IMG/VR virus record: IMGVR_UViG_3300014492_000001
Coordinates: 1-52,761 of that record
Strand: one strand, 5' to 3'
DNA from: a virus
DNA: 52,761 nt
Positions 1,973-40,898 of this stretch are shown piece by piece. Every line of letters starts with the position of its first letter. Position 1 is the first letter of the stretch. The notes under the pieces are model-generated. The model saw nothing but the letters and a program-made list of their open reading frames with translations, did no database searches and was not told where the DNA came from. A program made the position numbers and the translations under genes.

Positions 1973-1983
1973 GGGAGATTCAA

Positions 1984-3183
1984 ATGGCAGCGAATTTAAC
2001 CACTATCGGTTCACAGCTTACCCCAGGTACTCCGACGGAGATCACGTTTGCTCCAAACACTTCCCCGCCTGCTGCCGTAAACGCAGTTGTACTTATCGGT
2101 CGTCAATCCGCAAGTGCTGGCTCTGCCTCTGGAGCTAACTACGTACCAGTTCAAATCTCGAACGTAGCTGATCCAATTGCTTGCTCAGGTGAAGTCGCTG
2201 GTCTGTTCGGACAGGGCTCTGAAATGGCGAAGATGGTGATTGCAGCCGTTCAAGCAAATCAACTTCAAGGAACAACTTTCCCTCCTCTGACTGCGATCCC
2301 TCTCGCTTCTACGGATACGGATCACGGACAGGCTCTGGTCGCTGTGGATAAACTTCCTGGAATTGCATACGTGGTTTCCCCGTTCGATGCCAATACCCAG
2401 TCCCTCATGAATCCTTTGCTCGCAGAGACTACCGCGATGTCCTTGCCTCAGCGTGTGGATAACGGTCAGTATGGAACGATTGCAATTGCAGCAAATCAAA
2501 GCGCTACGACCTTCTCGTCCCTTACAAAGTACAACACTCCTTATGGTTCCTTTCAGTGGTTGCGTAACTCTGCACCGACTCAATTAAACGGTGAGATCGC
2601 TGCTTCTGTTGCGGCTCAACTCGCTGCGAATGCGGTTCCTTTCAACCCTGTTAAGAACCTTGTTATTCCAAACATTGTAGCTCCGTCCCAAGCGGATCAA
2701 ATCACTGTTGGAGCGGGAATGGATTCGGAAGGGGCTTTGGCTGCAGGTTGGTCCCCGCTCCGGCTTCTTTCGACCGGATCGGTGGCTCAGCTTCGTGCTA
2801 GAACTCTCCGCATCTTCCTCGCAGACGGTGTGACCCCTGTGACTGATTACTTCGACGTGATGGACTTTAACGTCCTGTTCTACTGGAGACAGACTCTAGT
2901 GACTCGTTATAACCAACCAGACTTCGCAAACGCTAAGGCGTCTCAAGGTCCTGGAAGCACGGGCCAGCTTCTTCTTTCGGAAGTCATTCGTCTCGGGTTC
3001 TTGTTTCAGACGAATGGAATGTTTCAAGGAATGGATCAAGCTGCGAAGAGCTTCTTGGTTCAACGAAACGCTACGGATCGCAGCCGCTTCGACGTGCTGA
3101 CTCCTGTAGACGTGATCCCGATCCTTGCAGTGATCGCAACCAATATTCAAGCCACTGCGGCTTACGACACCATTACTGTTTAA
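1984..3183 (+). CDS. Contractile tail sheath protein (Mu gpL type)
   Basis: The 399-residue product has the order expected of sheath proteins: an N-terminal segment (FAPNTSPPAAVNAVVLIGRQ), alanine-rich helical middle parts, and a C-terminal domain with DYFDVMDFNVLFYWRQTLVTRYNQPDF. It polymerises around the tube and shortens during injection, so the phage is a myovirus. At 399 residues it is shorter than Mu gpL (about 495), mostly in the middle. It has a good ribosome binding site (AAGGGAGATTCAA before ATG). The tube gene should follow at once but is separated by an HNH gene. Confidence 0.85.
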   Translation: MAANLTTIGSQLTPGTPTEITFAPNTSPPAAVNAVVLIGRQSASAGSASGANYVPVQISNVADPIACSGEVAGLFGQGSEMAKMVIAAVQANQLQGTTFPPLTAIPLASTDTDHGQALVAVDKLPGIAYVVSPFDANTQSLMNPLLAETTAMSLPQRVDNGQYGTIAIAANQSATTFSSLTKYNTPYGSFQWLRNSAPTQLNGEIAASVAAQLAANAVPFNPVKNLVIPNIVAPSQADQITVGAGMDSEGALAAGWSPLRLLSTGSVAQLRARTLRIFLADGVTPVTDYFDVMDFNVLFYWRQTLVTRYNQPDFANAKASQGPGSTGQLLLSEVIRLGFLFQTNGMFQGMDQAAKSFLVQRNATDRSRFDVLTPVDVIPILAVIATNIQATAAYDTITV

Positions 3184-3188
3184 GGAGA

Positions 3189-3695
3189 TTGATAGTGGTT
3201 TGTAATAGGTGCAGTTCAGATAAGCCAGAATCTAATTTTGGAACCTATTCAAACGGTAATGGTAAAGGTCGTATTTACACAAGAAAACAATGTCTTAAGT
3301 GCAGAACGGCCTTTAGGAATAAAGAAAAAAATTCGGAATGCTCTCTAAGATGTTGGAGGAAAAAGTTCTCTAAAAATAAAGAAGCTTGGAACTCGAAGGT
3401 AAGGGAATACAGATTAAAAAGAAAGCTATCTGGAAACCCAATCAAGAGAAACTGTGCTTCTGATAAATACAGGTCTAACTCTAGGATTAATATTTTTTTT
3501 CGGGCAGAGGTTAGAAGAATTTATGGAACGATTTGCTCTTACTGCTTCTTAGAGGCAAAAACCATAGATCATGTGGTCCCGTTAAATAAAGGCGGGTTAA
3601 ATGAGATTGAAAATCTCGTTCCAGCCTGTAACTCTTGTAATAGTTCAAAACAAGACCAGCACTTGACTTTTTGGCTGGCACGAAAGGCTGGGTAA
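3189..3695 (+). CDS. HNH homing endonuclease inserted between sheath and tube genes
   Basis: The 168-residue product starts with a zinc-finger pair (CNRCSSDKPESNFG...CLKC), has a basic central region, and ends with a typical HNH core: CSYC, then TIDHVVPLNKGG (catalytic DH), then NLVPACNSCNSSK. It cuts DNA and probably spreads itself by homing. The start is TTG 3189 or GTG 3195; AAGGAGA upstream is probably the tube gene's original ribosome binding site. The gene is clearly more A/T-rich than its neighbours. Its stop codon overlaps the first codons of the tube gene in another frame, so almost nothing lies between the ORF and the interrupted gene. Confidence 0.85.
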   Translation: MIVVCNRCSSDKPESNFGTYSNGNGKGRIYTRKQCLKCRTAFRNKEKNSECSLRCWRKKFSKNKEAWNSKVREYRLKRKLSGNPIKRNCASDKYRSNSRINIFFRAEVRRIYGTICSYCFLEAKTIDHVVPLNKGGLNEIENLVPACNSCNSSKQDQHLTFWLARKAG

Positions 3696-4116
3696 CTATA
3701 CGGCGACTAAATACGCGGATCGCGCTTTTCTGAGTGTAAACGGTGCAAAGATCGCTGATCTTCAAAGCGCTACAATGAACCTGAACTACAACGCCAAGGC
3801 GGTTCCGAATATGACCCCAGACGGTTTTAATACTGGGTTCGTTCAAGGAAACTTAGATTGTGATATCGACTTTGAAATCGCAGTCGAGAATCTCAATGCC
3901 ACCCCGAAAATCGAAGAGCTTCCCTTCGATACGGCAGATGTCGCATTGAACTTCGTTTGCGGAGCTGACCAGTACATCTGTAGCGGTCTTTTCTGTAAAA
4001 CCATGAAAGAAGCAGCTTCTGGCATCGGTCAGGAAGCTAAAAAGAATTGGACCTTCGGGGCCCTAAAGGCAACAGATGCCGTGGGTAACTCCGTCTTGTT
4101 CAATTTAAGCCTGTAG
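3688..4116 (+). CDS. Tail tube protein (Mu gpM type) with its normal start removed
   Basis: From the ATG at 3775 the product is 113 aa. The same frame continues upstream and encodes GNYTATKYADRAFLSVNG and AKIADLQSATMNLN, which matches the N-terminal strand pattern of Mu-like tube proteins (Mu gpM has AFIRVNGMELESMEGASF). The native protein is therefore about 142 aa. In this frame there is no ATG, GTG or TTG between a TGA at 3664 and the ATG at 3775; CTG 3688 is the only start-like codon next to the conserved part. The start codon seems to have been displaced by the HNH gene. Expression could use CTG, a +1 shift at the HNH stop (GGG TAA C), or splicing. The start given here is a best guess. 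Confidence 0.7.
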   Translation: MGNYTATKYADRAFLSVNGAKIADLQSATMNLNYNAKAVPNMTPDGFNTGFVQGNLDCDIDFEIAVENLNATPKIEELPFDTADVALNFVCGADQYICSGLFCKTMKEAASGIGQEAKKNWTFGALKATDAVGNSVLFNLSL

Positions 4117-15095: not shown

Positions 15096-17129
15096 ATGAA
15101 ACTAATCTCCCTGATCTCAATCTTCGCCCTTCTGGCTTCGAACGCTTTCGCGGTCTCCAAGATCCAACAACAAGATATTACGACTCACGCGATTTGCTCG
15201 GCTGCAGGTGCGACCGACGCGAACTGTCTTCCTCTGGATTCTCAGGTTTATGTGGGAGCCTTAGGGATCAACCAAACTTTAAATTCCGCGATCACGGCTG
15301 GTCTCATCGGCGGATCGGGCGGCGGCGGTGTTCAGCTCCTCTCGAACGCTAGCTTTGAAAACGGAACCGCTGCGACGGGTTGGACTTTCACCACGATTAC
15401 GGGCTCTGCCAATACAACTTCCGTCTCGGCTGGAAAACAGTCTGAAGATCTGACTTATTCTTCTTCGACGGGGAGCATCGCTCAGAGCGTAACTCCGACT
15501 CCGATCAGTACCTTGAACATCCCCATGGAAGCGTCTTGTAAGGTCAAGACGACCGTTGGAGTGGCTGAAGTTTGTGCTTTGGTGAACGGCGTGAAGAGCG
15601 GATGTACTGCGGCTTCGGCCTCTGGTGCTTTCACTTATGTTCCTGTTAATTTTCAAGGTCCTACAGATGGAACCACCATCGGCGTGATGGTCGATGTGAC
15701 CAGCTCGACTTCTGGAATCGTAACGATCGATGATTGCTACGTGGGTCCAGCTCGAAATGGGGGAAGCGTTCAGCAGGCTCAGCTCGTAGGCGGGGTAACG
15801 ATCACGGGTTGCGCTTCAGGTTGGACTACGACCGGCACTTCTTATGCCGATTTTTCTACGGTTTCTGGTTGCACTTATACTCCTTTCGGTTCTGCCGTTG
15901 CTCCATCAACCAATCTTCCTGCCGTAAAGTTTCCTTCTCTCGGTGCCGGAAACTATGTCATCCAATATGAGGGGCAGTATCGTATCAACGGATCGTCTAC
16001 TGACACGGCTTATGTTCAGTTTTGGGACGGAACGAATACTGCGATTGAAAATTCGCAGGTTATTACAAATGCAAACTTCGTGGGTGTTCCTGGAATTAAC
16101 CAGTCGATTACCTACGCTTCCGCTCAAAGTAACGTAACTTTATCCCTTCGCGGAAAAGTTTCGACAGGCACGGTGACTGCCTCCATTTATGGGACCAACA
16201 CGTTCCCAGGCGTAATTAAGGTTTATTATTTTCCAACTCAATCTCAGCAAGCCTACAACCCTTCTCAGAACCCAGCGAGCTGGAGCGGAGTTCATCAGAA
16301 CTGCACAAACTGGGCGTTCACAAGCTCTACTTACGCTGATCCTGGAAACCCATCAAGCGGATCTTGCGCGTTAGTGCAAAGAACGAATAGAAATTTTGGA
16401 ACAGTAACTGGATACGTTGCTACCTCTGGCTCTACCGCCTTACCTGGGATTGTTTTTAATCCTCCAAGAACTGGAAGGTACTTAGTTACGGCGTCAACAG
16501 CCCTAGAGAGCGCAGCGGCATCTTCTTCCGGAGCTGTGTTAACGGACGGATCGGGTAATATTCTTTCCGGCTCCTCTAGAACGGGGGGGTCTGTCGGAGC
16601 TGTTTCTGCCTCGGTTTCTCTAATCGCATATTTGGATGTCACGACGACATCAAGTCCTTACACCGTAAAAATTCAAGTCGCGACTACGGGTGGAACCGGG
16701 TTCATATCCGATACTAATTTTACCAATCAGACTAACGTAGAGTGGGCCATTACTGAGCTAGATGCCCCCCAGTCGATGCCATTCCTTCAGGGAAACGTGA
16801 CTAGTAATACCCAGGGTTCAGAGCATATTGAGCGGGCTTCGATCGCTACTTCGTGCACCTCTACCCCTTGCACGATTACGAGTCAGTCCGGTTCTTGGTT
16901 GACATCTGTTAGTCGCGCATCAGCCGGAACTTACACGATGAACATTCTTTCTGGAGAGTTCTCTGCGACTCCAACATGCACGGTGGTCAATGGGGACGGG
17001 AACAACGTGGCTTATGGAGTGATCCAGGCGTCGGCTACATCTACGTCGGTTCCTTTCGATTCCTACGCCTCTTCTTCGAGCACGCTAACTGATTCTCGCT
17101 TTAATATTATCTGCATGGGAAGTCATTGA
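15096..17129 (+). CDS. Large secreted beta-rich fibre-like protein
   Basis: The 677-residue product opens with MKLISLISIFALLASNAFA, a Sec signal nearly identical at its start to the previous gene's. Residues about 80-220 (LLSNASFENGTAATGWTFTT to TIDDCYVGP) resemble a carbohydrate-binding-module fold often found in structural or surface proteins (SNxSFExG...GWTxT...VxIDD). The remainder has repeated C-containing beta segments (GWTTTGTSYADFS; AFTSSTYADPG) and at least a dozen cysteines, which suits an oxidising compartment. Function unknown; probably adhesin-like. Confidence 0.7.
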   Translation: MKLISLISIFALLASNAFAVSKIQQQDITTHAICSAAGATDANCLPLDSQVYVGALGINQTLNSAITAGLIGGSGGGGVQLLSNASFENGTAATGWTFTTITGSANTTSVSAGKQSEDLTYSSSTGSIAQSVTPTPISTLNIPMEASCKVKTTVGVAEVCALVNGVKSGCTAASASGAFTYVPVNFQGPTDGTTIGVMVDVTSSTSGIVTIDDCYVGPARNGGSVQQAQLVGGVTITGCASGWTTTGTSYADFSTVSGCTYTPFGSAVAPSTNLPAVKFPSLGAGNYVIQYEGQYRINGSSTDTAYVQFWDGTNTAIENSQVITNANFVGVPGINQSITYASAQSNVTLSLRGKVSTGTVTASIYGTNTFPGVIKVYYFPTQSQQAYNPSQNPASWSGVHQNCTNWAFTSSTYADPGNPSSGSCALVQRTNRNFGTVTGYVATSGSTALPGIVFNPPRTGRYLVTASTALESAAASSSGAVLTDGSGNILSGSSRTGGSVGAVSASVSLIAYLDVTTTSSPYTVKIQVATTGGTGFISDTNFTNQTNVEWAITELDAPQSMPFLQGNVTSNTQGSEHIERASIATSCTSTPCTITSQSGSWLTSVSRASAGTYTMNILSGEFSATPTCTVVNGDGNNVAYGVIQASATSTSVPFDSYASSSSTLTDSRFNIICMGSH

Positions 17130-17473
17130 TGAAACAGGTGAGACCGAGAACCATTGACGGATATAGAGAGAAGCTTAATCAGCTTTCTGTTTCTAGTAGC
17201 AATGGTTGCGTAGAGTTTTCTGGACAAAGAAACAAAAAAGGATATGGGAAAATTAAGTTCTTTCGCCGCGATGTCCGAGCACATCGTCTCGCATACGAGT
17301 TAAAGTTCGGCCCAATCCCCGAGGGTTTGTATGTCCTTCACCGGTGCGACAATCCGCCATGCATAAACGTAAATCATCTTTTTCTAGGAACCGCTAGGGC
17401 TAACGCCGTTGACCGAATGCTAAAGGGTCGCGGAAATAATCAATACACCGTGGTCCTCACTAAGGAGGTCTGA
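17129..17473 (+). CDS. HNH endonuclease (HNH_3 type), free-standing
   Basis: The 114-residue product has the paired motif of this family: GYGKIKFFRRDVRAHRLAYE followed by VLHRCDNPPCINVNHLFLGT, where LHxCDNPxCxNxxHL is the zinc/HNH core. It is paralogous to the genes at 22700 and 29215. The ATG at 17129 overlaps the fibre stop (TGATG); an in-frame TTG lies one codon upstream. It sits between tail and lysis genes without visibly breaking either. Its C-terminus lacks the second zinc ribbon of the other two. Confidence 0.8.
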   Translation: MKQVRPRTIDGYREKLNQLSVSSSNGCVEFSGQRNKKGYGKIKFFRRDVRAHRLAYELKFGPIPEGLYVLHRCDNPPCINVNHLFLGTARANAVDRMLKGRGNNQYTVVLTKEV

Positions 17474-19150: not shown

Positions 19151-19986
19151 ACGGTGAAGTGACTTTTCAAGAGATATCGACCTTAGGTACCCCGCGATTA
19201 CAGCAGACGGGGATTCAGCAGTGGGACGAAGAAGGCGTTCTTCATCTAAAGGACTTCATCCCTCACGATTTGATCGAGGCGTATGTTCAGGAAAGAACCA
19301 ATTTAATTGGCAGTACAGACAAGTGGCGTCCGGGTTGGAACGATGCAGTTCCGTATCTTCGTGTTCAGTCCATGAAGGAACTGGCTTGTTTTCGTCCGCT
19401 GACTGAAGCCATTCGTCCGCTAATTGGTGGCCACGAACCGGGTCTCCATTTGTGCTTAACAGGCTTTCAGTCCACGGAGAGGGCTTGGCATCAGGACAGG
19501 TATCTAAATCCTGAGTATGTGGGGGAGAGATATATCGCTGCCTGGATAGCTCTAGAAGATGTGCACGAAGATGCCGGCCCCTTCGAATACGTTCCTGGTT
19601 CGCATCGCTGGCCCGTAATCGAGCGGTCCAAAGTCTGGAGTCGGATGCGGCAGGTGGGACAAAATCCAGATCTACCGACCTGGCCAAGTGATTCGCAATC
19701 ATGGGTGGGAACCGCATGCGAAAATGAGATTCAAGAGCGTGGAATAAAAACTGCTCGATTTCTTGGTAAGAAGGGAGATGTGTTGCTGTGGCATGCTTCT
19801 CTAGTTCATCGTGGATCGAAACCGAAAAATCCGGAACTTGAACGTCGAAGCCTAATCTCACATTACAGCAGCATTCACGCCCGTCCCGACATGCAGAGCA
19901 TGCGCAGGATGGAGAACGGTTCATTTTATTTCTTCTTTCCCGAAGGACTTAAAGAGCCCTCGAAGTCTACTCATAAACCCGCATAG
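19147..19986 (+). CDS. Fe(II)/2-oxoglutarate dioxygenase, PhyH family
   Basis: The 279-residue protein has the phytanoyl-CoA dioxygenase layout: AWHQDRYLNPEY gives the HxD iron ligands (H115, D117), AGPFEYVPGSHRWP is the family hallmark, and LLWHASLVHRGS with RRSLISHY gives the distal histidine (H221) and the 2-oxoglutarate arginine (R234/235). All catalytic positions are present. The substrate is unknown; neighbours are sugar enzymes on the opposite strand, and PhyH members modify small molecules and glycans. The gene converges on the epimerase gene with a 16-bp tail overlap. Confidence 0.85.
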   Translation: MNGEVTFQEISTLGTPRLQQTGIQQWDEEGVLHLKDFIPHDLIEAYVQERTNLIGSTDKWRPGWNDAVPYLRVQSMKELACFRPLTEAIRPLIGGHEPGLHLCLTGFQSTERAWHQDRYLNPEYVGERYIAAWIALEDVHEDAGPFEYVPGSHRWPVIERSKVWSRMRQVGQNPDLPTWPSDSQSWVGTACENEIQERGIKTARFLGKKGDVLLWHASLVHRGSKPKNPELERRSLISHYSSIHARPDMQSMRRMENGSFYFFFPEGLKEPSKSTHKPA

Positions 19987-20876
19987 TGCCTCACTGTTCT
20001 TCCTAGGAGTTCGCAGAAGTCTTGCGGCGTTCCCCCTATTGAACTGAGTCGGCTGCAATCAAGTAGGTACGCCTTTTCGTGTCCAGGTCTGTCTGCCTGT
20101 CCTGGTTTTATTTTTGCCTTTACGTTGAGGATCTGAGCTATCAGACAAACCAATTCCTCGTTCGGCAGCTTCTCCCCGGCGGCGTGTATCTTAAATCTGG
20201 GTGTTGCCATTGGGATTCCTGCGACCATGAGCATTATTTTAGAGAGGCTTTCTGCGTGAATCCACTTCCGATAGCAATCGTGAACTTCGATCTCTTCCCC
20301 CTTGAGTAGCTTCTTCACGGTAGAGGGGATGAACTTATTCTCAGGCTGGTACTCACCGAAAATGTTCTGGGTGTTCATGATCGTGATCGGAAGCTTGTAG
20401 CTTTTGGCATAGGAGGTTGCGATGGCCTCCTGGGCGCACTTTGAAGCTGCGTAAGGGTTGGTCGGCATAAAGCGGTCGCCCTCGTACCACTCCGAAAAAT
20501 CGTTATGACTGGTGTTCGGCCCGTAAACTTCCGCAGTCGAAACGTGAATGAATCGCTGTAGGTCTGGGAGGTCTCGCGCGAAGTCCAGCATCGTAATGAC
20601 CATCTCCACGTTGTCCCTGATGAAGGATCTCGGGTCTTCTAGGCTTGCCGATACGTCTGCCCTGGATGCGCAGTTGAAGATGATGTCCGGCTTTACCCAG
20701 TTCATCCGTAATTGCATTCTCAGGTCCCTTTCTGTCTGAAGGAACCTCTCGGAGCTGATCCTCTTGTTCTCGAAGTAGTCCAGACCGAAGACCTGCCAGT
20801 CCGTTTTATCGAGGATGAACTGAACGAGGTGATGCCCCAGAAGTCCTGCTGAGCCGGTTACGATTACGCGTTTCAC
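19971..20876 (-). CDS. NAD(P)-dependent sugar epimerase/dehydratase (extended SDR)
   Basis: The 301-residue protein has the nucleotide-binding TGSAGLLGHH at the N-terminus, VSTAEVYG, and the catalytic YAASK (YxxxK), as in dTDP-glucose dehydratase/UDP-glucose epimerase relatives. The C-terminal sugar-binding part is present (WIHAESL, DRPGHEKAYLLD). It is the last gene of a minus-strand cluster with a glycosyltransferase and overlaps it by 4 bp. The exact sugar is undetermined. Confidence 0.85.
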   Translation of the reverse strand: MKRVIVTGSAGLLGHHLVQFILDKTDWQVFGLDYFENKRISSERFLQTERDLRMQLRMNWVKPDIIFNCASRADVSASLEDPRSFIRDNVEMVITMLDFARDLPDLQRFIHVSTAEVYGPNTSHNDFSEWYEGDRFMPTNPYAASKCAQEAIATSYAKSYKLPITIMNTQNIFGEYQPENKFIPSTVKKLLKGEEIEVHDCYRKWIHAESLSKIMLMVAGIPMATPRFKIHAAGEKLPNEELVCLIAQILNVKAKIKPGQADRPGHEKAYLLDCSRLSSIGGTPQDFCELLGRTVRHYAGL

Positions 20877-22085: not shown

Positions 22086-22727
22086 ATGATTCGTGAGCAG
22101 CTTGCGGGAAAGCATATAAGGGGTTCTGGCTGCGAAATAGGCGGTTTGCACGTTCCCACCAAGGTTTTACCTGGGGCCAAAGTGACCTACGTTGACAGAC
22201 TCCCCCCTGGAGAGGCCCACCCAGACGTACAAACCAGGGTTCACGATCTCGTAGTGGACGACGCTGAATTTCTAACCCACTTTCATAACGACACTCTCGA
22301 CTTCGTAATTGCTAACCACGTACTGGAGCACTGCCACGATCCGATTGGAACGTTGAAGAATTGGTGCCGAGTCCTTAAGCCAGGAGGGATTGTTTACTGC
22401 GCTCTCCCTGATAAAGAACAGACCTTTGATAAGCCGAGGGCCACCACTACTTTGCTCCACCTGATTGACGACCATGAAAACGGTTCTGGGCGAGGAGACA
22501 TAATTCATCTTTCAGAATGGCACTATCATATTGATGGTTTGCGTGGCCAAGCCCTTGAGGACCGGGTGAAATTCGGTTTGGATTCGAGGTCAAATATTCA
22601 CTTTCATTTATGGGACGAAGAGGGCATGCAATTGCTGTTTAATTACGTGGGTAAAGAGCTTGAGATTTTAGAAAAAAAACGTAACGGAGCAGAAATAATA
22701 TGGGTTCTAAGAAAAATTCCCGCTTAA
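22086..22727 (+). CDS. Class I SAM-dependent methyltransferase
   Basis: The 213-residue protein has a Rossmann-type methyltransferase core: GSGCEIGGLHVPTKVLPG (motif I, acidic EIG), FVIANHVLEHCHDPIGTLKNW (motif IV region with the NHVLEH signature) and VLKPGGIVYCALPD. This type methylates small molecules, sugars or lipids, not DNA. Neighbouring sugar enzymes suggest a glycan substrate. The gene's last 28 bp overlap an HNH gene. Confidence 0.8.
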   Translation: MIREQLAGKHIRGSGCEIGGLHVPTKVLPGAKVTYVDRLPPGEAHPDVQTRVHDLVVDDAEFLTHFHNDTLDFVIANHVLEHCHDPIGTLKNWCRVLKPGGIVYCALPDKEQTFDKPRATTTLLHLIDDHENGSGRGDIIHLSEWHYHIDGLRGQALEDRVKFGLDSRSNIHFHLWDEEGMQLLFNYVGKELEILEKKRNGAEIIWVLRKIPA

Positions 22728-23152
22728 AGTGGCCAACTAATTATCGGATCTCTTCTTCTGGTTGTTGGATCTATCTTGGTTGCAAAAAAGAAAACGGCAA
22801 AGGATACGGGGTGATAAGCACCGGGGAGCATGCCCATCGAGCGTTTTACGCTCTCCATAAGGGCGAAATTCCAAAGACCCTTTGGGTTCTCCATCGCTGC
22901 GACAACCCTCCGTGCGTTAATCCGGACCATCTGTTCTTGGGAACCCATAAGGATAACATGCGCGACATGGCTGAAAAAAACCGAGCCTGGAATCCAAAAG
23001 CCAAAGCTCTTAAAAGCCAGACCTCTTGTAAAAACGGACATCCTTTTGACGAAAAGAACACCTACTACAGAAAAGACAGGCCTGAAAAAATGGGCAGGAT
23101 TTGCAAAGCTTGCCGAGGCATTAGGCTCAAAGTTTACGCAGAAAAGAGGTGA
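22700..23152 (+). CDS. HNH endonuclease (HNH_3 type) with C-terminal zinc ribbon
   Basis: The 150-residue protein has GCWIYLGCKKENGKGYGVI, the HNH core VLHRCDNPPCVNPDHLFLGT, and a second Cys module (CKNGHPFDEKNTYYRK...ICKACRG) shared with the gene at 29215. It starts inside the end of the methyltransferase gene and overlaps the next gene's alternative start by 4 bp. It is probably a free-standing homing endonuclease. Confidence 0.85.
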   Translation: MGSKKNSRLKWPTNYRISSSGCWIYLGCKKENGKGYGVISTGEHAHRAFYALHKGEIPKTLWVLHRCDNPPCVNPDHLFLGTHKDNMRDMAEKNRAWNPKAKALKSQTSCKNGHPFDEKNTYYRKDRPEKMGRICKACRGIRLKVYAEKR

Positions 23153-23154
23153 CT

Positions 23155-23712
23155 ATGGAATCTACGAAAATTGTCCGTATCGAATGCCAAGGTGTTGCGT
23201 CTGCTCCTGTAGATGAGTTCTCTCCGCTTCAAGGAGATTTAAAAAGTCTCTCAGATATCGACTACGAAGCTTTTAAAAAAGAAATTATCGAGATCGGATT
23301 TAAGTTCTCCCTTCACGTCTGGGAGAATGAAGATAAGAAATGGATAACCGACGGACATCAAAGAATTACTGCTCTCAAAAGAATGCGGGCTGATGGCTGG
23401 GAGATTCCTAATATCCCTTATTCCCTAGTATTCGCTGCGGATATCAACGAGGCAAAACAAGCTCTCTTGGGTGCCGCAAGTCAGTACGGTAAAGTAACTG
23501 AGACCGGACTGAAGAACTTTTTGAATGACGTTCAGATCGATCCGATCCGTTTAGAAAACTTCCGGCTTCCTGATATTGAAATGCCCATCTTCATCGAGAC
23601 ACATCTCAGAATGCCAGAATTTCAGGAGCCAGATAAAAAAGCTGATCCTGTTTTAAAAGAACCGGACCTTAAGCAATGTCCTAATTGTGGTGTGATCCTC
23701 GACAATGGGTAA
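23155..23712 (+). CDS. ParB-like nuclease-domain protein paired with a DNA methylase
   Basis: The 185-residue protein contains LKSLSDIDYEAFKKEIIEIGFKF and WITDGHQRITALKRMRADG, the ParB N-terminal/sulfiredoxin-like core (DGHxRxxAL is the nucleotide-contact box). It ends with a CPNCG zinc knuckle. Such proteins are often encoded directly before phage adenine methylases, as here (8-bp overlap). A GTG two codons upstream is an alternative start. The role may be CTP-dependent DNA binding or modification targeting. Confidence 0.75.
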   Translation: MESTKIVRIECQGVASAPVDEFSPLQGDLKSLSDIDYEAFKKEIIEIGFKFSLHVWENEDKKWITDGHQRITALKRMRADGWEIPNIPYSLVFAADINEAKQALLGAASQYGKVTETGLKNFLNDVQIDPIRLENFRLPDIEMPIFIETHLRMPEFQEPDKKADPVLKEPDLKQCPNCGVILDNG

Positions 23713-24703
23713 TTATGGAATTCCCTATATGGGGTCGAAGGATTCTCTGATTCAAAAAATAGGGCACCTTTTCCCTGCTGCTGAAAACTTTTACGATTTG
23801 TTTGGTGGCGGTTTTTCGGTCTCTCATTTTATGCTTTTGCATAAGTCTGAAAAATATAACCGTTTTTTTTACAACGAAATAAAAGCTGACATCGTTCGGC
23901 TGGTTTCGGACGCCATCGCTGGGAAGTACAATTACGATGTGTTTAAACCTAAGTGGATCAGTAGAGAAGACTTCGAGAGAAACAAGACCAATTGTGCTTA
24001 TACTCGTTGCATCTGGTCATTTGGAAATAACCAAAAAAGCTATCTTTTCAGCGCTGAAAACGAGACGAACAAAAAATCACTTCACAATGCGGTTGTTTTT
24101 AATGAATTTGATTCGCTCGCCGAAGATCTTTTAAAGATAACTTCTTTTCCTGGGCATCTGTCTATTCGTGGCAGAAGGCTAATGTGCCGGTCTATTGTTT
24201 GCGACCGCAAGGGTGAGTTAGAGCAGTTAGAGCGGTTAGAGCGGTTAGAGCGGTTACAGCAGTTACAGCAGTTAGAGCGGTTAGAGCGGTTACAGCAGTT
24301 ACAGCAGTTAGAGCGGTTAGAGCGGTTACAGCAGTTAGAGCAGTTAGAGCAGTTAGAGCAGTTAGAGCGGTTAGAGCTTTCTAGTAAAAGCTACGAGTCC
24401 ATAACAATTTTGCCGCGTTCGGTGGTTTACTGTGACCCGCCCTATAAGGGAACTGCCGGTTATATCGATTCGTTTGATCATGATATTTTTTGGGACTGGG
24501 TGAGGAATCAAAGTGAGCCCGTTTTCGTATCGGAATATAACGCCCCCAAAGACATCCGTGTCCTGGCGGCATTTAACCATAAAAAATCATTATCTGGTTT
24601 AGGGAGCTCGACTGGCTCGGTGGAAAAGCTATACATTAACGCCGCAGCGGAGTCCATCCTTGCCGAATCAAAAATCATCGCCGCTCAACCAGTCTTGCGG
24701 TAA
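23705..24703 (+). CDS. DNA adenine methylase (D12 class) with a Leu-rich repeat insertion
   Basis: The 332-residue protein starts with the Dam signature YMGSKDSLIQKI, motif I is DLFGGGFSVS (31-40), and the catalytic DPPY lies at about 243-246 (YCDPPYKGTAGY). It transfers methyl from SAM to adenine N6. Between the target recognition region and DPPY, residues 172-225 are an 18-fold L-E/Q-R/Q repeat absent from ordinary Dam proteins. All methylase motifs remain intact, so activity is plausible. It may protect phage DNA from restriction. It converges on the repressor gene. Confidence 0.85.
   Translation: MGNYGIPYMGSKDSLIQKIGHLFPAAENFYDLFGGGFSVSHFMLLHKSEKYNRFFYNEIKADIVRLVSDAIAGKYNYDVFKPKWISREDFERNKTNCAYTRCIWSFGNNQKSYLFSAENETNKKSLHNAVVFNEFDSLAEDLLKITSFPGHLSIRGRRLMCRSIVCDRKGELEQLERLERLERLQQLQQLERLERLQQLQQLERLERLQQLEQLEQLEQLERLELSSKSYESITILPRSVVYCDPPYKGTAGYIDSFDHDIFWDWVRNQSEPVFVSEYNAPKDIRVLAAFNHKKSLSGLGSSTGSVEKLYINAAAESILAESKIIAAQPVLR
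24218..24379 (+). repeat. Tandem 9-bp repeat, 18 copies, inside the methylase gene
   Basis: Units are TTAGAGCGG, TTACAGCAG and TTAGAGCAG (LER, LQQ, LEQ), with a higher-order LER LER LQQ LQQ pattern of 36 bp repeated. Every unit is in frame, so copy-number change alters length without breaking the gene. The near-identity of units points to recent slippage. Confidence 0.95.
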
Positions 24704-28287: not shown

Positions 28288-29196
28288 ATGGAAAACAAAG
28301 AATACGATTTCAAAAAATATCTTAAATCTTGGAAGGAAGAAAAGTTCGTCGAGAACCTTCCTGAAGAGATCTACCACGCAGAAGAGGCCCTCAGCTCCGG
28401 TCAGCTTTCAGCGATTATCAATCCCGATTACGGAATTCATCGTCTCTTCGCAGAAAAGACACTAGGCTTAAAAAAAGAAGCCACTGAGGCGCAAAGCTTT
28501 GGGAGCAAGTTTCATAAGGCAGTTTTAGAGCGCGACGAATTTCTAAGACGCTACAAAGTTGTTCCAGAATTTACAGGCCTAACGAAAGATGGAAGACCCT
28601 CCACACAATCAGCCGAAGCAAAAGCAAAGAAGGCAGCCTGGTACGCGGACCAGCCCAAAGATGCGATTATCGTAGAGAGCGCCGAAGAACGGGACCAACT
28701 TTCTGGAATGCTTGAATCACTTTTGAAACACAAAGAGGCGGCGGACTTGTTGAAGGGCGGGATTACAGAGCTTTCGGGGTTCTTTAATTTGAACGGCTTT
28801 CGATGCAGAACTAGGGTCGATATTTTCCGCGAAGATATTAATACGATCATCGATCTCAAGACGACTAGGAATGCCTACAGTCAGGAGTTCGAGAAGCAGA
28901 TAGTAAAGAATTTTTATTTCATCCAAGCGTGGCTCTACCTAGCGGGAGCGATCAAGATTACGAAGCGCAAGAACATGAAATTCAAGTTCATCGCGGTCGA
29001 AAAAGAACCGCCGTATCTCGTTACGGTTCAGGAGATCGGAGAATCTATGTTGACCTGCGGAGATATTCTAGCGAACCAAGCGATGTCTAAACTCAATGCT
29101 GCGATCAACAGCGGAGTTTGGCTCCCAGAACCCCAGATGACCTACATGGCAGAAGCCCCAGAATGGATGCTCAAGAAATTGGAAGGACAAGTATGA
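28288..29196 (+). CDS. RecE-like 5'-3' exonuclease (PD-(D/E)XK)
   Basis: The 302-residue protein carries AQSFGSKFHKAVLERDEF (His 76 region), RTRVDIFREDINTIIDLKTT with D178 and D189-x-K191 (PD-(D/E)xK core), and IVKNFYFIQAWLYLAGA (QxxxY-like motif). This matches the RecE/exonuclease VIII C-terminal domain. It feeds 3' single strands to the annealing protein encoded next (4-bp ATGA overlap). The 110 bp before it (28178-28287) hold no gene and are A-rich. Confidence 0.8.
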   Translation: MENKEYDFKKYLKSWKEEKFVENLPEEIYHAEEALSSGQLSAIINPDYGIHRLFAEKTLGLKKEATEAQSFGSKFHKAVLERDEFLRRYKVVPEFTGLTKDGRPSTQSAEAKAKKAAWYADQPKDAIIVESAEERDQLSGMLESLLKHKEAADLLKGGITELSGFFNLNGFRCRTRVDIFREDINTIIDLKTTRNAYSQEFEKQIVKNFYFIQAWLYLAGAIKITKRKNMKFKFIAVEKEPPYLVTVQEIGESMLTCGDILANQAMSKLNAAINSGVWLPEPQMTYMAEAPEWMLKKLEGQV

Positions 29197-30350
29197 CCAC
29201 GCAAGGAGTAACAGATGCAACTAGGGGAAAGATTTTGGTCAAAGGTAAAGAAAACGGAGACGTGTTGGATATGGACGTCGGCGAAAAACAAGGCGGGGTA
29301 CGGGTGTTATCAGATTTATCCAAAAACGCACCTATCTCACAGGCTCAGCTACCAGGAAAAACACGGAGCAATTCCACAGAAAATTGGAGTTCTGCACCAG
29401 TGCGACAACCCTCCTTGCGTGAATCCGGACCATCTGTTCCTGGGGGATCAACTAGCAAACATGAAGGATGCGGCTCAGAAGGGGAGGGTCAGAAACGGCC
29501 ACATGAACCAGAAGGAATGCCACAGAGGGCACCTACTATCGGGGAGCAATATCTACACGAGCAAAAAGGGAATGAGAATGTGCCGCAAGTGCAGCAGAAA
29601 ATGGAAGGCAGAGTACTACCGGAAGACAGTAAATCCAAACGCCAAACCATACAAGCGCAGGGGAACGGAGTACTAGTTGGAACTAGTTTTGAGGATCAAT
29701 ACCGAATTGCTAAGGCATACCACGCCTCTGGTTTAATGCCGAAATCTTTAAACTCAACTGAGAAGGTGCTAGTTGCCATGCAACTTTGCAGGGAGCTTGG
29801 CCTTCCAGTGATCTCTTCTCTCGGAAAGATTATGGTTGTGAACCAAGTCCCAGCGATATTCGGAGACCTACCTCTGGCGCTAGTTTTAAGCTCTGGGAAG
29901 GTGGAGGATTATCGAGATGATTTTGAACAAAAAGACGGTAAGCCTTACGCTTCTACGTTTACGGTGAAGAGGAAAAACCTATCACCAGTTATTCGAAGAT
30001 TCACGCTTGACGACGCAAAGAACGCCGGTCTTTTCAGGAATGATATTTGGAGCAAATACCCACAGAGAATGCTCCAATGCCGAGCCAGGGCTTGGGCACT
30101 TAAAGACGCATTTCCAGATGTTCTCTCGGGCGTCTTTATCGCAGAATACGACTTTAACACAGTCGTAGAGCAAGCGAGCGAATCAACACCATCTACGAGA
30201 GCAATGGATCGCCTTAACTCTCTCGCAGAACCAGATCCAATTGTTTTACCGAAAGAAGAAATTGAAATGAGCAGTGAACCAGAGTTCGATCCGAGCTTTG
30301 ACATAATAGGAGAAGAGAATGAGCCAGCAGCCCCTAGAATTGGAAGTTGA
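29193..30350 (+). CDS. recT: RecT-family single-strand annealing protein with overprinted N-terminal extension
   Basis: The conserved part begins at about residue 166: FEDQYRIAKAYHASGLMPKS, LVAMQLCRELGLPVISSLGK, VNQVPAIFGDLPLALVLSSG, then DDAKNAGLFRNDIWSKYPQR and MLQCRARAWALKDAFPDVLS, the RecT signature. ATG 29193 overlaps the exonuclease stop, as expected. Between residues 8 and about 163 the frame is open but encodes a low-complexity S/G/E/K/Q chain, because this stretch is the HNH gene read in another frame. No ATG/GTG/TTG start exists between the HNH end and the domain. Either RecT is made with the extension or the segment is removed. Confidence 0.75.
   Translation: MTTQGVTDATRGKILVKGKENGDVLDMDVGEKQGGVRVLSDLSKNAPISQAQLPGKTRSNSTENWSSAPVRQPSLRESGPSVPGGSTSKHEGCGSEGEGQKRPHEPEGMPQRAPTIGEQYLHEQKGNENVPQVQQKMEGRVLPEDSKSKRQTIQAQGNGVLVGTSFEDQYRIAKAYHASGLMPKSLNSTEKVLVAMQLCRELGLPVISSLGKIMVVNQVPAIFGDLPLALVLSSGKVEDYRDDFEQKDGKPYASTFTVKRKNLSPVIRRFTLDDAKNAGLFRNDIWSKYPQRMLQCRARAWALKDAFPDVLSGVFIAEYDFNTVVEQASESTPSTRAMDRLNSLAEPDPIVLPKEEIEMSSEPEFDPSFDIIGEENEPAAPRIGS
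29215..29676 (+). CDS. HNH endonuclease nested out of frame in recT
   Basis: The 153-residue protein has FWSKVKKTETCWIWTSAKNK, the core VLHQCDNPPCVNPDHLFLGD, and a C-terminal zinc ribbon (CHRGHLLSGSNIY...MCRKCSRKWK) homologous to the gene at 22700. Its ribosome binding site AAGGAG is made from recT codons 4-6 (CAA GGA GTA), 7 bases before its ATG. It lies wholly within recT in the +1 frame, ending 11 bp before the conserved RecT domain. Confidence 0.85.
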   Translation: MQLGERFWSKVKKTETCWIWTSAKNKAGYGCYQIYPKTHLSHRLSYQEKHGAIPQKIGVLHQCDNPPCVNPDHLFLGDQLANMKDAAQKGRVRNGHMNQKECHRGHLLSGSNIYTSKKGMRMCRKCSRKWKAEYYRKTVNPNAKPYKRRGTEY

Positions 30351-30807
30351 AGAGAGGAAAGTTACGCGTTTAGTTCAGGTTGAATTAAGCGTAGCAGATC
30401 ACGCGCAACTTCATAAAGACAGTTGTTCCAAGAAAGCCGAGATCCATGATTTGGAAACCGCTTTCAAAGTAAAGCAAGAAGAACATAAAGCAGCCCTCAG
30501 GGGCTTAGAGGCCGAACTTGATTCGATCATCGACAAGCAAAGCGAAAGCAGAGAAGAAGAGTGCATCCAAAAAACCTTCTTCGAAAACAACCTTGTCCAA
30601 GTCTGGCACGGAGATAAGCTCATCGAAGAAAGAGCGCTCACGGCAGAAGAACGGCAAATGCACCTTGGACCAATTCAACACGGGACGGTTGTTGGGGCTG
30701 AAGAAGACACAGCAGAAGTTACTCCAGAAGAGTTTAACGAAGATCTTTCCGAAACAATGAGAGAAGAACGTAAAGCAACGAAAATGAGTTTGGTGGATTT
30801 AAGATAG
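30319..30807 (+). CDS. Hypothetical coiled-coil protein following recT
   Basis: The 162-residue acidic protein has a long helix (about 25-80, KKAEIHDLETAFKVKQEEHK), likely a coiled coil. It overlaps the recT end by 32 bp. Similar small helical proteins sit after recT in other phages, but no function is known to me. RecT partner or DNA-end protection are possible. Confidence 0.6.
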   Translation: MSQQPLELEVEERKVTRLVQVELSVADHAQLHKDSCSKKAEIHDLETAFKVKQEEHKAALRGLEAELDSIIDKQSESREEECIQKTFFENNLVQVWHGDKLIEERALTAEERQMHLGPIQHGTVVGAEEDTAEVTPEEFNEDLSETMREERKATKMSLVDLR

Positions 30808-31190: not shown

Positions 31191-31562
31191 ATGGGAAGAG
31201 CGTCAAAAGAACAAGCCGGAGTCTATGCTTGCCCAAAACGAGGAAGAAATCGCCGCCCAAAGAAAACGAAACAGGAGCGCGACGATCAGCGCAGCGAAAA
31301 GCTTGTTCTGGAAAGAGCTAGGAAAGGGGTCTGTGCTGCGTGCGGCAAAATTGGCGGTCTTGATCCTGATCACCAAGTTACAAGAGGTGCCGGCGGTGGG
31401 GAGGAGTATTGGAACATTATGCCTTTATGTCGGAAAGAGCATGTACAAAGGCACTCTAAAGGGGTCCTCTGGCTCTCGGAAAAATACCCAGGAGTAAAGG
31501 CTTGGCTAATTCAAAATGGTTGGGAGTTTTGTGATTTACGAAAACGTTGGGTGCATAATTAA
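31191..31562 (+). CDS. HNH nuclease, NinG/YajD-like
   Basis: The 123-residue protein has a basic N-terminus and a clear HNH core: GVCAACGKIGGLDPDHQVTRG, then NIMPLCRKEHVQRHSKG, with zinc cysteines (CAAC...C) and the catalytic DH. Unlike the homing-type HNH proteins here, it resembles recombination or packaging-associated nucleases. A frame from GTG 31147 (MSTMEPDLVESTVKKWEERQ) overlaps it and is probably a short or chance ORF; its 5' 15 codons may be a leader. Confidence 0.75.
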   Translation: MGRASKEQAGVYACPKRGRNRRPKKTKQERDDQRSEKLVLERARKGVCAACGKIGGLDPDHQVTRGAGGGEEYWNIMPLCRKEHVQRHSKGVLWLSEKYPGVKAWLIQNGWEFCDLRKRWVHN

Positions 31563-31862: not shown

Positions 31863-32534
31863 ATGCAAGCACAAGAGCTTAAAAATATTTTAGAGAAACA
31901 TCGCAAATGGGTGATGGGCGAGACCGGCGGCGAGAGGGCGGACCTCCGCTCTGCGGACCTCCGCTCTGCGAACCTCCGCTCTGCGAACCTCCGCTCTGCG
32001 GACCTCAGCTATGCGGACCTCAGCTATGCGGACCTCAGCTATGCGAACCTCAGCTCTGCGGACCTCCGCTCTGCGGACCTCCGCTCTGCGGACCTCAGCT
32101 ATGCGAACCTCAGCTCTGCGGACCTCCGCTATGCGAACCTCCGCTCTGCGGACCTCAAAGAAATTAAAGAGGACTTTTTCAAAGTTCTTTCGATTTCTAA
32201 GAATGAGGTGGTTGGACTTTACGATGCTCTGATGCGCGGAAAGATAGATGGCTCTCAGTATCAAGGGGAGTGTGCGTGTCTCGTTGGAACCGTCGCGAAT
32301 ATTAGAAACGAGAAATACGACAACCTTGGAATTGATCTCAGACCCAATTCGGATCGTCTCGCTGAGAGATGGTTCCTCGGAATATCTAAGGGCGACATTC
32401 CAGCGAATAACGAGGTTTCCCGCGTAACCGTGTCTTGGGCAGAAGAGTTTATGACTGAGAATGGCCTGTCTGTTCCTCAGTACAAGCTTATTTCTAATCT
32501 TGAGCGTCTGGAACTTTTCAAAACGCATCTTTAA
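31863..32534 (+). CDS. Pentapeptide-repeat protein
   Basis: The 223-residue product has an N-terminal helix ([19 protein letters not shown]), 15 pentapeptides (residues 26-100; [20 protein letters not shown] types with A(D/N)L), and a C-terminal domain ([20 protein letters not shown]...[12 protein letters not shown]). The repeats form a right-handed beta-helix; some members mimic DNA to inhibit gyrase. N- and C-terminal parts resemble a family seen in many uncultured phages. Strong AGGAGG site. Confidence 0.8.
31938..32162 (+). repeat. Tandem 15-bp repeats encoding pentapeptides
   Basis: Fifteen near-identical 15-mers (GCGGACCTCCGCTCT and variants with AAC, AGC, TAT) make up the region. Units differ in only one to three bases, so recent expansion or gene conversion is likely. 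Because the unit has no stop in several frames, long open frames appear on both strands. Confidence 0.95.
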
Positions 32535-37795: not shown

Positions 37796-38055
37796 GCAAG
37801 GTTCTTTGGCGAGTGATTTACAAACAAGGAGCGCGTCTTAAGGATCGCTGCTTTAGTGAGGAAGCTGAAGCGAGAGAGTTCGTGCTGAAGCAACGCAAGT
37901 ACCTGAACGACTACCGATTGGAGAAGATCAGCCACATTCCTATTTGGGACCGATGGCTCCGCACTCGAATCACTTGGTTCAATCTTGAAGTTCCAATCCT
38001 CTTTATCGTTCTTTGTGCATTCATGGGCTACGGCCTCTGGGAGATCCTAAAATGA
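37792..38055 (+). CDS. Small protein with C-terminal membrane anchor
   Basis: The 87-residue protein has a charged first half and one transmembrane segment at residues 67-86 (EVPILFIVLCAFMGYGLWEI). It overlaps both neighbours by 4 bp and directly precedes the glycosyltransferase. It could anchor a sugar-transfer step to the membrane; this is inference. Confidence 0.55.
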   Translation: MSKVLWRVIYKQGARLKDRCFSEEAEAREFVLKQRKYLNDYRLEKISHIPIWDRWLRTRITWFNLEVPILFIVLCAFMGYGLWEILK

Positions 38056-39128
38056 TTAACGTTCTACTTATTATCCCGAATAGAAACGACGCGACCTCAC
38101 TCTATCGAGGCATGGGACCATTCGCCTTACTGCGGAAAGAATTTAATTTTAACATAGTAACCTCTGACACGGTGGACGAGTCGATCTTAGATCTCGTGGA
38201 CTTCGTGTTCATGCAGAGACCCAGTACGGACGGGCACGCCAAAGTAGCGGAGATGTGCAAGATCAACGGAACACCGCTCTGGATTGATTACGACGACTTC
38301 CTATTCGAAGTTCCTCAAGATAACCCAGCTTACGACGCATACATGAAGCGCGAAGTGCATAACAACATCGTTAAGATTATTCGGATGGCAGACGTGGTGA
38401 CCGTATCCACGGAACAGCTCAAGCGTTGCCTTCAACCTAAAGGCCACGTTTTGAATGAGCGAGTCTACGTGGTTCACAACGCTCTTCACGATAAGTACTT
38501 GCGTCTGAAGCAGCCGTTTAAATTTAAGCCGCACATCAACTGGCGCGGATCAAGAACGCACATGCGAGACATCATGGAGTACGCACCAGAGGTTGCGGAG
38601 TTTGCTAACAAGCATCAGGAGTCCACGTTTACCTTCATTGGGGATAACCCGTGGTACCTGACTCAGAACATGCCTCGCAAGCAGGCCATCGTTGTACCTC
38701 CAATGGGAATAAACGATTACTTCCAGTTCATCACGAAGACGAACCCATCTATTCAGATCGTGCCGCTTCACGACTCCATGTTTAACCGCTGCAAGTCGAA
38801 CATCGCTTGGATCGAAGCTTCTCTCGCTGGGGCAATCTGTATCGCTCCGAGATGGCAGGAGTGGGAAGATAAACCCGGATGCCTCACCTATTCCACACCA
38901 GAGGAATTTAGGGACTGCCTCGAATACGCTATCGCTAATCCAGATGAGATGGCACAGCAGCACGCGCTTGGGTTCGAATACATTCAGAAGAATCTATTGC
39001 TCTCGAACATTAATGTGTTTCGTAATGTACTGATGCAATGTCTTTACGCCTTAGTTCGCGGAGCAGAAGTAACATTTCCAAGGGACGGAGAAGCGCTCGA
39101 GGAAGAAGCTGTCATGGAGCTGGAATGA
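38052..39128 (+). CDS. Glycosyltransferase, GT-B fold
   Basis: From ATG 38052 the product is 358 aa: MINVLLIIPNRNDATSLYRGMGP at the start, then PLWIDYDDFLFEVP, ADVVTVSTEQLKRCLQ, VHNALHDKYL, NWRGSRTHMRDI, and IEASLAGAICIAPRWQEWED near the C-terminus. These follow GT-4-like enzymes (acceptor domain, then donor domain with the glycine-rich loop). It overlaps the RmlB-like gene by 4 bp, forming an operon with it. The target could be a virion protein or cell-surface glycan. Confidence 0.75.
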   Translation: MINVLLIIPNRNDATSLYRGMGPFALLRKEFNFNIVTSDTVDESILDLVDFVFMQRPSTDGHAKVAEMCKINGTPLWIDYDDFLFEVPQDNPAYDAYMKREVHNNIVKIIRMADVVTVSTEQLKRCLQPKGHVLNERVYVVHNALHDKYLRLKQPFKFKPHINWRGSRTHMRDIMEYAPEVAEFANKHQESTFTFIGDNPWYLTQNMPRKQAIVVPPMGINDYFQFITKTNPSIQIVPLHDSMFNRCKSNIAWIEASLAGAICIAPRWQEWEDKPGCLTYSTPEEFRDCLEYAIANPDEMAQQHALGFEYIQKNLLLSNINVFRNVLMQCLYALVRGAEVTFPRDGEALEEEAVMELE

Positions 39129-40108
39129 AAGTTCTAATCACAGGATGGGCTGGGTTCATCGGCTCGAACCTTACTCGGATGATCCTCAGTGATACTGACT
39201 GGGATATCTACGGAATGGACTCCCACACCTACGCAGCAAGGCCGCTCTGGGTTTACACGGTGGTCCAGTCGAACCAAAAACTTAAAGATAGATTCTTCGC
39301 TCTGCCGAATGATATCCGCACATTCCCCCTCGAGGGCTTAGTATTCGATGTGGTCATACACCTTGCCGCTGAGTCCCATGTTTGTAGATCAATAGAGGGA
39401 CCAGAGAAGTTCATCGATACGAATATCCTTGGGACGTTCAATCTTCTCGAGGGTCTTCGCAGGTCAAAAAGCAAAGCAATCTTCCATCACGTATCAACAG
39501 ACGAGGTTTACGGTGTCGCGCAAGAAGGATCAAAGTTTAAAGAAAGCACTCCGTACGATCCAAGGAGTCCTTATTCAGCAAGTAAAGCAGCAAGCGACCA
39601 CCTCGTATCCGCTTACCACCACACCTACGGGCTCAATACGAGAATCACGAACTGCTCGAACAACTTCGGTGCGAACCAGCATTCAGAGAAGCTCATCCCC
39701 AAGACGATCAAGAGAATCCTCAAAGGAGAGCCGGTCACTCTCTACGGACCAGGCAATCAAGTTAGAGACTGGATCTGGGTTGACGATCACTGCCGAGGAA
39801 TCCTCGCAGCTATTGCTAATGGCAGCCCGGGAGGTACTTATTTACTTGGGGGAGAGTGTGAAAGAACAAATCTCGAAGTCGTACAAGACTGCTGGATTGC
39901 TTGCCAAGAAGTCGCGGAAGAACAAAAGATCAAACTCCCGACGGACCTCGTAATAGAACATACAAACGACCGCCCGACCGATGACCAGCGTTACGCCATT
40001 GATTGCTCACATGCCAAGAAGATGCTCAACTGGAAGCCGTTACACGAGCTGTACTTCGAAAGGTTGAAGGAGACCGTTAGATGGTATCTGAAACACGAGC
40101 CAACGTAA
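39125..40108 (+). CDS. dTDP-glucose 4,6-dehydratase-like SDR
   Basis: The 327-residue protein has MKVLITGWAGFIGSNLTR (NAD-binding), HVSTDEVYGV, YSASKAASDHL (catalytic YxxxK), NCSNNFGANQHSEKLIPKTI and RDWIWVDDHCRGI, the full RmlB signature. RmlB makes dTDP-4-keto-6-deoxyglucose. The start is set at ATG 39125 (ATGA overlap), not the longer frame from 39038. Confidence 0.85.
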   Translation: MKVLITGWAGFIGSNLTRMILSDTDWDIYGMDSHTYAARPLWVYTVVQSNQKLKDRFFALPNDIRTFPLEGLVFDVVIHLAAESHVCRSIEGPEKFIDTNILGTFNLLEGLRRSKSKAIFHHVSTDEVYGVAQEGSKFKESTPYDPRSPYSASKAASDHLVSAYHHTYGLNTRITNCSNNFGANQHSEKLIPKTIKRILKGEPVTLYGPGNQVRDWIWVDDHCRGILAAIANGSPGGTYLLGGECERTNLEVVQDCWIACQEVAEEQKIKLPTDLVIEHTNDRPTDDQRYAIDCSHAKKMLNWKPLHELYFERLKETVRWYLKHEPT

Positions 40109-40356
40109 TCGTAGACGCGGACTTCGTAGAATCGGTTTCGGACGTAAAGGACATCACGCTTGCTTATGTTAGAGCAGCGATGGAAGCAGGGGACGATAAC
40201 AAAGAGACCTACCTTCGGGGAATGCTTCGAGGGGTTGAGATCTGCATGGAGAACTACCAGATATGTTTAGACGCGATGGCGAAGGATCAGAGAGAGCAGG
40301 CGCTGAAAGATCTTCAAACGAATCTCAACTTAACCACAATGGACAGCAGTACTTAG
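40081..40356 (+). CDS. Small helical hypothetical protein
   Basis: The 91-residue protein (MVSETRANVIVDADFVESVS...) is acidic and helical. It overlaps the end of the RmlB-like gene by 28 bp and the RmlC-like gene by about 94 bp in another frame. Not recognised. Confidence 0.5.
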   Translation: MVSETRANVIVDADFVESVSDVKDITLAYVRAAMEAGDDNKETYLRGMLRGVEICMENYQICLDAMAKDQREQALKDLQTNLNLTTMDSST

Positions 40357-40898
40357 TTCACGGGTTCGGTAAAGGCGGGCCCAAGCTTATTACCTTACCC
40401 AGGTATATCGACGATCGCGGCTCATTCATGGAGAGCTTCAACAAGAGGGTGTTTGAACTCTTAGCGCTACCTACGGAATTCCCACAAGACAATATAAGTG
40501 AATCTAAGGCGAACGTGATTCGCGGGATGCACCTACAGAAGAACAACCCCCAAGGGAAACTCGTTACCGCGATCCGTGGGCACATTCAGGATGTATGTAT
40601 TGATCTTCGACCTGGCGAGACCTTCGGCCAAACCTACTCAGTAAAGCTCGGTCCTACGAAGGAAGGCTTTAGACAGTTCTTCTACATCCCTCCAGGGTTC
40701 GCTCACGGGTTCAGAAGTCTGACTGATTGCATCGTTCAATACAAATGCACCACTCTTTACGACAAGGAGTCTGATGGTGGGATTAACCCAATGGAGTCAG
40801 GAATAGACTGGGGATTAAAAGAAGAACAAGGCGTGACGATCTCCGAGAAGGATCGAATGCTGCCATCCCTGCTGGACTACTACAAAGCTTGCCATTAG
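40263..40898 (+). CDS. dTDP-4-dehydrorhamnose 3,5-epimerase-like (RmlC type)
   Basis: The 211-residue protein has the RmlC cupin pattern: DDRGSFMESFNKRVFE, QDNISESKANVIRGMHLQ, GKLVTAIRGHIQDVCIDLRP, IPPGFAHGFRSL and YKCTTLYDKES. The catalytic histidines (RGMH and GFAHGF) and tyrosine are present. With RmlB it would give dTDP-4-keto-rhamnose or a related sugar; no RmlD reductase was seen. The ATG at 40263 has GGAG upstream; the first 35 or so residues look non-conserved. Confidence 0.8.
   Translation: MFRRDGEGSERAGAERSSNESQLNHNGQQYLVHGFGKGGPKLITLPRYIDDRGSFMESFNKRVFELLALPTEFPQDNISESKANVIRGMHLQKNNPQGKLVTAIRGHIQDVCIDLRPGETFGQTYSVKLGPTKEGFRQFFYIPPGFAHGFRSLTDCIVQYKCTTLYDKESDGGINPMESGIDWGLKEEQGVTISEKDRMLPSLLDYYKACH

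Follow-up and report, generated by a model that had tools for sequence, protein, structure and literature searches.

An HNH endonuclease gene has probably settled inside the recT gene of a phage represented by a single metagenomic contig of 52.8 kb (IMGVR_UViG_3300014492_000001), with the host frame kept translatable and RecT acquiring an unstructured extension. The whole contig (52,761 nts) is hereafter called the window, and the features of the locus are listed in Table 1. Relative to recT, the HNH ORF occupies the +1 (second) frame; read in the recT frame, the HNH codon positions follow the order 3, 1, 2. The first-pass annotation had described a recT frame that stays open from ATG 29193 across the entire out-of-frame HNH gene and leads into a conserved RecT domain near residue 166. 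Both observations were reproduced: no stop codon occurs in the frame, the match to a RecT-like profile covers residues 147-347, and the predicted fold becomes confident from residue ~161.

Table 1. Features of the recT locus in the window (positions are those of the window)
Feature	Position	Strand	Evidence or remark
RecE/ExoVIII-type exonuclease gene	28288..29196	+	phrog_412 exonuclease VIII, E=1.9e-56; PF12684, 3.7e-23
Shine-Dalgarno-like GGAAGGA for recT	29181..29187	+	5 nt before ATG 29193; read from the sequence
recT frame, 385 codons without a stop, continuous through the HNH gene	29193..30350	+	Translation; stop-avoidance tests
Shine-Dalgarno AAGGAG for the HNH gene	29203..29208	+	Within the first recT codons; 6-nt spacer to ATG 29215
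Left copy of imperfect direct repeat, GGAGTAACAGATGCAACTAG	29205..29224	+	16/20 identical to 29667-29686
HNH_3 endonuclease gene, 153 aa, 462 bp	29215..29676	+	PF13392, E=1.9e-7; phrog_826 HNH endonuclease, 1.4e-34
Possible internal recT starts (GTG 29580, GTG 29589, ATG 29601)	29580..29603	+	Inside the HNH gene
Right copy of imperfect direct repeat, GGAGTACTAGTTGGAACTAG	29667..29686	+	Spacing exactly 462
Conserved RecT annealing domain, residues ~166-320	29688..30152	+	phrog_561; AlphaFold; Foldseek

The TGA stop codon of the upstream exonuclease gene overlaps the recT start codon as ATGA. Because the exonuclease and recT genes of Gordonia phages Phlop and Bosnia share an identical ATGA overlap, ATG 29193 appears to be the ancestral start of recT. 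In the alignment of the HNH protein, both the catalytic HNH motif and the C-terminal CxxGH...CxxC motif are intact. The window also contains at least four more HNH-type genes (3189-3695, 17126-17473, 22700-23152, and 31191-31562), several of which start a few bases before the preceding gene ends. Elsewhere in the window, a pentapeptide-repeat-like protein with A[DN]LR/SY repeats is encoded at 31863-32534, where the antisense frame is also open for 244 codons. The product of 23705-24703 is DNA methyltransferase-like and contains an internal tract of heptad-like LERLQQL repeats. Sugar-nucleotide epimerase/dehydratase-like and glycosyltransferase-like genes were observed at 19971-20876, 38013-39128, 39038-40108, and 40263-40898.

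In this arrangement, a stop arises in the recT frame when the third base of an HNH codon is T and the next codon starts with AA, AG or GA. Synonymous recoding of the HNH protein would be expected to place about 10 stops in this frame, and none is observed. Given the HNH protein, the exact probability that the frame is open is 4.6e-6 with the codon usage of the phage and 1.2e-5 with that of 23 other HNH genes of similar G+C content, and within-gene synonymous permutation gives 0.0012. The value rises to 0.0016-0.016 once T-ending codons are scaled down to the low T3 of the gene itself; if the HNH donor was poor in T-ending codons, the openness would be less surprising to this extent. None of the 35 vulnerable HNH codons ends in T (11.6 expected), whereas 19 of the 76 non-vulnerable codons for which T is an option do (Fisher 3e-4). 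The equivalent relative frame of the four other HNH genes in the window contains 23, 11, 12, and 6 stops. As an empirical null, 245 distinct HNH ORFs were collected, 77 of which have a G+C content of 44-55%. The mean number of stops in the corresponding frame of these 77 ORFs is 9.7, and zero stops were found in two of them, namely the window gene and an HNH gene located in a phage DNA polymerase gene (L151, described below).

It might be supposed that the shadow frame of the HNH gene is merely open by chance and merely happens to be joined to the recT frame. Shadow runs of 163 and 151 stop-free codons occur elsewhere in the window, and therefore length alone is no proof; the window case was, moreover, picked for being open. 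Zero-stop HNH genes are common above 60% G+C (5/65), which means that open-frame examples of high G+C content need care. Against this explanation, which we regard as very improbable, both stop-free HNH genes at matching G+C lie within real host genes, and T-ending codons are absent precisely where stops would arise. The open recT frame through the HNH gene is more than chance.

The second case was found in another viral contig (L151, IMGVR_UViG_3300030521_000002), in which an HNH gene (2462-3115) is nested in a family-A DNA polymerase gene (1339-4005). The host frame encodes a polymerase of 888 aa whose 3'-5' exonuclease domain precedes the insert and whose polymerase domain follows it. The insert is missing from 20 homologues (C-terminal identity 44-51%) and occupies a variable-length loop flanked by 'YMxxYxRFW' and 'WYxLHPSLNPTGT'. 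The probability that the host frame is open is 1.5e-8. The hydrophobic fraction of the host-frame peptide is 0.171 vs 0.243 in stop-free recodings, lower than in all 2000 of them, and this depletion survives within-gene permutation (P=0.004). As read from the sequence, the HNH start at 2462 is preceded by GAGG inside host codons. This case resembles that of the window in its HNH_3 family, frame offset, scarcity of T-ending codons, G+C content (~49%), and stop avoidance; it differs in that the insert is internal, within a polymerase loop, whereas the window insert lies near the RecT N-terminus. With an identity of only 35% between the HNH proteins, the two insertions are most likely independent events. 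To our knowledge, the hidden HNH gene in this polymerase has not been reported.

Other nesting candidates were also inspected. HNH genes of five contigs (L254, L328, L338, L350, and L356) have open shadow frames whose translations, judged by eye, do not resemble genuine host proteins, and they were rejected; the HNH gene of L348 likewise has an open shadow frame, and all six except L350 exceed 60% G+C. Overlapping annotations in three phage records (H83, H106, and H117) proved to be end-to-end overlaps and not nesting.

The recT-frame protein of the window matches phrog_561 ('RecT-like ssDNA annealing protein', E=1.8e-19). In an AlphaFold model based on a 34-sequence alignment, pLDDT is 36-56 over residues 1-160 and mostly 80-98 over residues 161-320. 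The best Foldseek match to the model is RecT of Listeria phage A118 (LiRecT, 7ub2), with a probability of 1.00 and E=2.9e-3, no match passing 1e-3. The RecT assignment is supported by sequence, by fold, and by the partner exonuclease encoded immediately upstream. The model thus predicts a RecT-like core behind a disordered N-terminal extension of ~150 residues, in agreement with the disordered extension proposed in the first-pass annotation, which had read the overlapped part as low-complexity sequence. The hydrophobic fraction of the host-frame peptide is 0.196 vs 0.269 in stop-free synonymous recodings of the HNH gene, below all 2000 samples; under within-gene permutation this depletion is weak (P=0.03-0.14).

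Further examination of the insert ends revealed an imperfect direct repeat whose spacing equals the length of the HNH ORF, a multiple of three. Shuffling gives P=0.002 for this repeat, and among 49 control HNH genes one has 16 matches as well; the repeat is a probable insertion boundary, and it makes the 5' end of the insert similar (16/20) to the sequence flanking the site on the 3' side. Deletion of one repeat unit would give the N-terminus MTTQGVLVGTSFEDQ..., leaving 11 residues ahead of the conserved region, compared with a median of 31 in relatives. Scans of viral and genome contigs for a recT relative lacking the HNH gene found none: the single-sequence scan returned zero relatives, and profile scans reached only 45% identity; close relatives of the insert were likewise absent from these collections. 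Because no closer recT relative was found, we infer the exact insertion point and the empty site from the imperfect repeat. Syntenic relatives were recognized via terminase (L001-L003), one of which (L003) has another recombinase type. In a prophage of Sphingopyxis sp. PET50 (L108), another HNH gene of the family (3420-3884) lies exactly between the exonuclease and recT genes; the recT frame has three stops inside this HNH gene, and recT restarts at GTG 3888 just past it. The exonuclease/recT junction is thus a place that attracts HNH genes, and beside the overprinted form there is a harmless intergenic one. As a separate observation, an HNH match in Salmonella phage VB_ST_SPNIS2 (OR757456.1:31928-32209) overlaps an annotated exodeoxyribonuclease VIII, so that HNH sequence again adjoins recombination genes.

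The prophage arrangement, in which recT simply uses its own GTG after the HNH gene, is relevant to an alternative in which RecT of the window is translated from a new start located in the 3' part of the HNH gene (GTG 29580, GTG 29589 or ATG 29601) and has a normal size, the openness upstream being a passive leftover. The first-pass annotation had noted the lack of an alternative recT start between the HNH end and the domain. This holds, since no ATG, GTG or TTG occurs in frame there, but the annotation had not considered the HNH gene itself, where these three codons and a further in-frame ATG (29517) are present. Among 124 relatives, the median length before the conserved region is 31 aa (10-90%: 15-43), and a start at ATG 29601 would leave 31 aa; this codon, however, has no clear Shine-Dalgarno sequence. 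Nor does the alternative explain the openness upstream of 29580, for which the probability is 2e-4 to 5e-4 (5e-4 with the HNH codon table and 3e-4 with the phage table), or 0.014 with T-ending codons halved. It is also inapplicable to the parallel polymerase case, because polymerase sequence is present on both sides of the insert and an internal restart cannot yield the whole enzyme. On balance, we consider an internal start unlikely, and translation from ATG 29193 through the insert is preferred.

The direct repeat at both ends of the insert would also be compatible with an unrecognized intron, protein-splicing element or ribosome bypass that removes or skips the insert, leaving the extension absent from the final RecT. 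Bypass of the T4 gene 60 type and intron homing are known routes. No Rfam match at E<=1 was found within 28500-30500, and the sole match of the L151 insert to Rfam was sub-threshold (a snoRNA, E=0.43). A group I intron was rejected: Rfam gives no match, the ORF fills nearly the whole insert, and no space is left outside it for a ribozyme core. An intein was rejected as well, the recT-frame protein being without any Pfam match and the extension being modelled as unstructured, and so was gp60-type bypass, since the host frame is open and stop-avoiding rather than closed. More generally, splicing or bypass would not require an open host frame, yet the open frame is what is conserved. We give such removal or skipping hardly any credence. 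The earlier claim that neither splicing nor intein removal is required agrees with the lack of any intron match in Rfam and of any intein match in Pfam.

Taken together, the following scheme is proposed for the preferred reading, in which recT is read through its resident HNH gene. A free-standing type of HNH homing endonuclease gene of ~462 bp would have inserted a few codons past the recT start in another frame. Ribosomes that initiate at the original recT ATG (29193) would traverse the insert and produce RecT with an unstructured N-terminal extension of ~150 residues; this read-through would be possible because the length of the insert is divisible by three and the host frame tolerates no stop. 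Other ribosomes would begin at the Shine-Dalgarno sequence and ATG of the HNH gene itself (29215) to produce the endonuclease, giving two overlapping translations from one mRNA. Selection on RecT would purge the host frame of stop codons and, probably, of hydrophobic residues, and therefore the two genes would be overprinted and splicing and protein excision unneeded. Judging from its family, the HNH protein presumably cuts recT genes lacking the HNH gene and is then copied in by repair. Full-length RecT is presumably made and active, and the HNH gene presumably is expressed and homes.

Homing genes are usually thought to be rendered harmless by residence in introns or inteins, by intergenic sites, or by division of the host gene into separate pieces. 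In the window, the homing gene is apparently tolerated since the host gene is read straight through. The published cases lie in G+C-rich phages, where the open frame is possibly luck, whereas the window and the polymerase case show selection on the host frame, and the claim is therefore testable. We would put at about even the chance that homing endonucleases of the overprinted type form a general class of selfish genes, which live in conserved phage genes (methylase, recT, and DNA polymerase) through evolution of a disordered, stop-free second coding sequence in the host frame, with host frames at average G+C content being selected against stops and hydrophobic residues. If true, this would be a route of gene parasitism without splicing. 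It also seems that, where a phage enzyme carries a long disordered insertion, this may in some cases be a hidden gene's shadow.

Several known systems can be compared with the window case. Free-standing phage HNH homing endonucleases (phrog_826, PF13392) are the same protein, normally located between genes. As cited in PMC5418858, the ribonucleotide reductase genes of Aeh1 and Twort are split by homing endonucleases; the homing gene likewise lies inside a gene of DNA metabolism, but the host gene there is broken into two ORFs, whereas recT of the window remains one. The closest parallel is the ShiLan insert in the mycobacteriophage methylase gp65, where the host frame stays open across an out-of-frame HNH gene (PMC11855218, PMC9957025). 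As in the window, an HNH ORF in another frame fills a stop-free insert without an intron or intein, and the host-frame peptide is predicted to be disordered. The 5' end of the insert is also reported to resemble the 3' flank (PMC11855218); such similarity was not seen in L151 or, by our ungapped 20-mer test, in ShiLan. The ShiLan case differs from that of the window in its host (methylase vs recT), in the position of the insert (internal vs near the N-terminus), in having no Shine-Dalgarno sequence for the HNH gene where the window gene has a clear one, and in its HNH sequence. Its G+C content is ~65%, and at its codon usage the openness is barely beyond chance (P=0.04, vs 5e-6 in the window).

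A second such insert was described in Pacc40 (Arsenault, Gosselin and Gogarten 2025, PMC11855218). Pacc40 gp60 (L244:5866-6345) resembles the window case in carrying an out-of-frame endonuclease-like ORF in an open insert; it differs in its chance probability of openness (0.18), its AP2/HNH-like protein, and its methylase-helicase host. The HNH genes of ShiLan and Pacc40 use the other register (host offset 1), whereas that of the window is in the second frame, and the register is probably an accompanying rather than a defining trait of ShiLan-type insertions. The text of PMC11855218 mentions neither RecT nor 'synonymous', and 'polymerase' occurs in it only in a reference title; within the open-access literature searched, what the present analysis appears to add to that work is two host genes (recT and polymerase) and the constraint test. 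The initial reading of a homing-type gene in recT with the host frame kept open stands with respect to stop avoidance, the lack of an intron or intein match, and the parallel in the polymerase gene. It does not stand as a new kind of element, since the hidden out-of-frame HNH insertion is a known kind (PMC11855218). What is new in the window case is the recT host, the other register, a Shine-Dalgarno sequence belonging to the HNH gene itself, the location near the N-terminus, and the statistical support for constraint.
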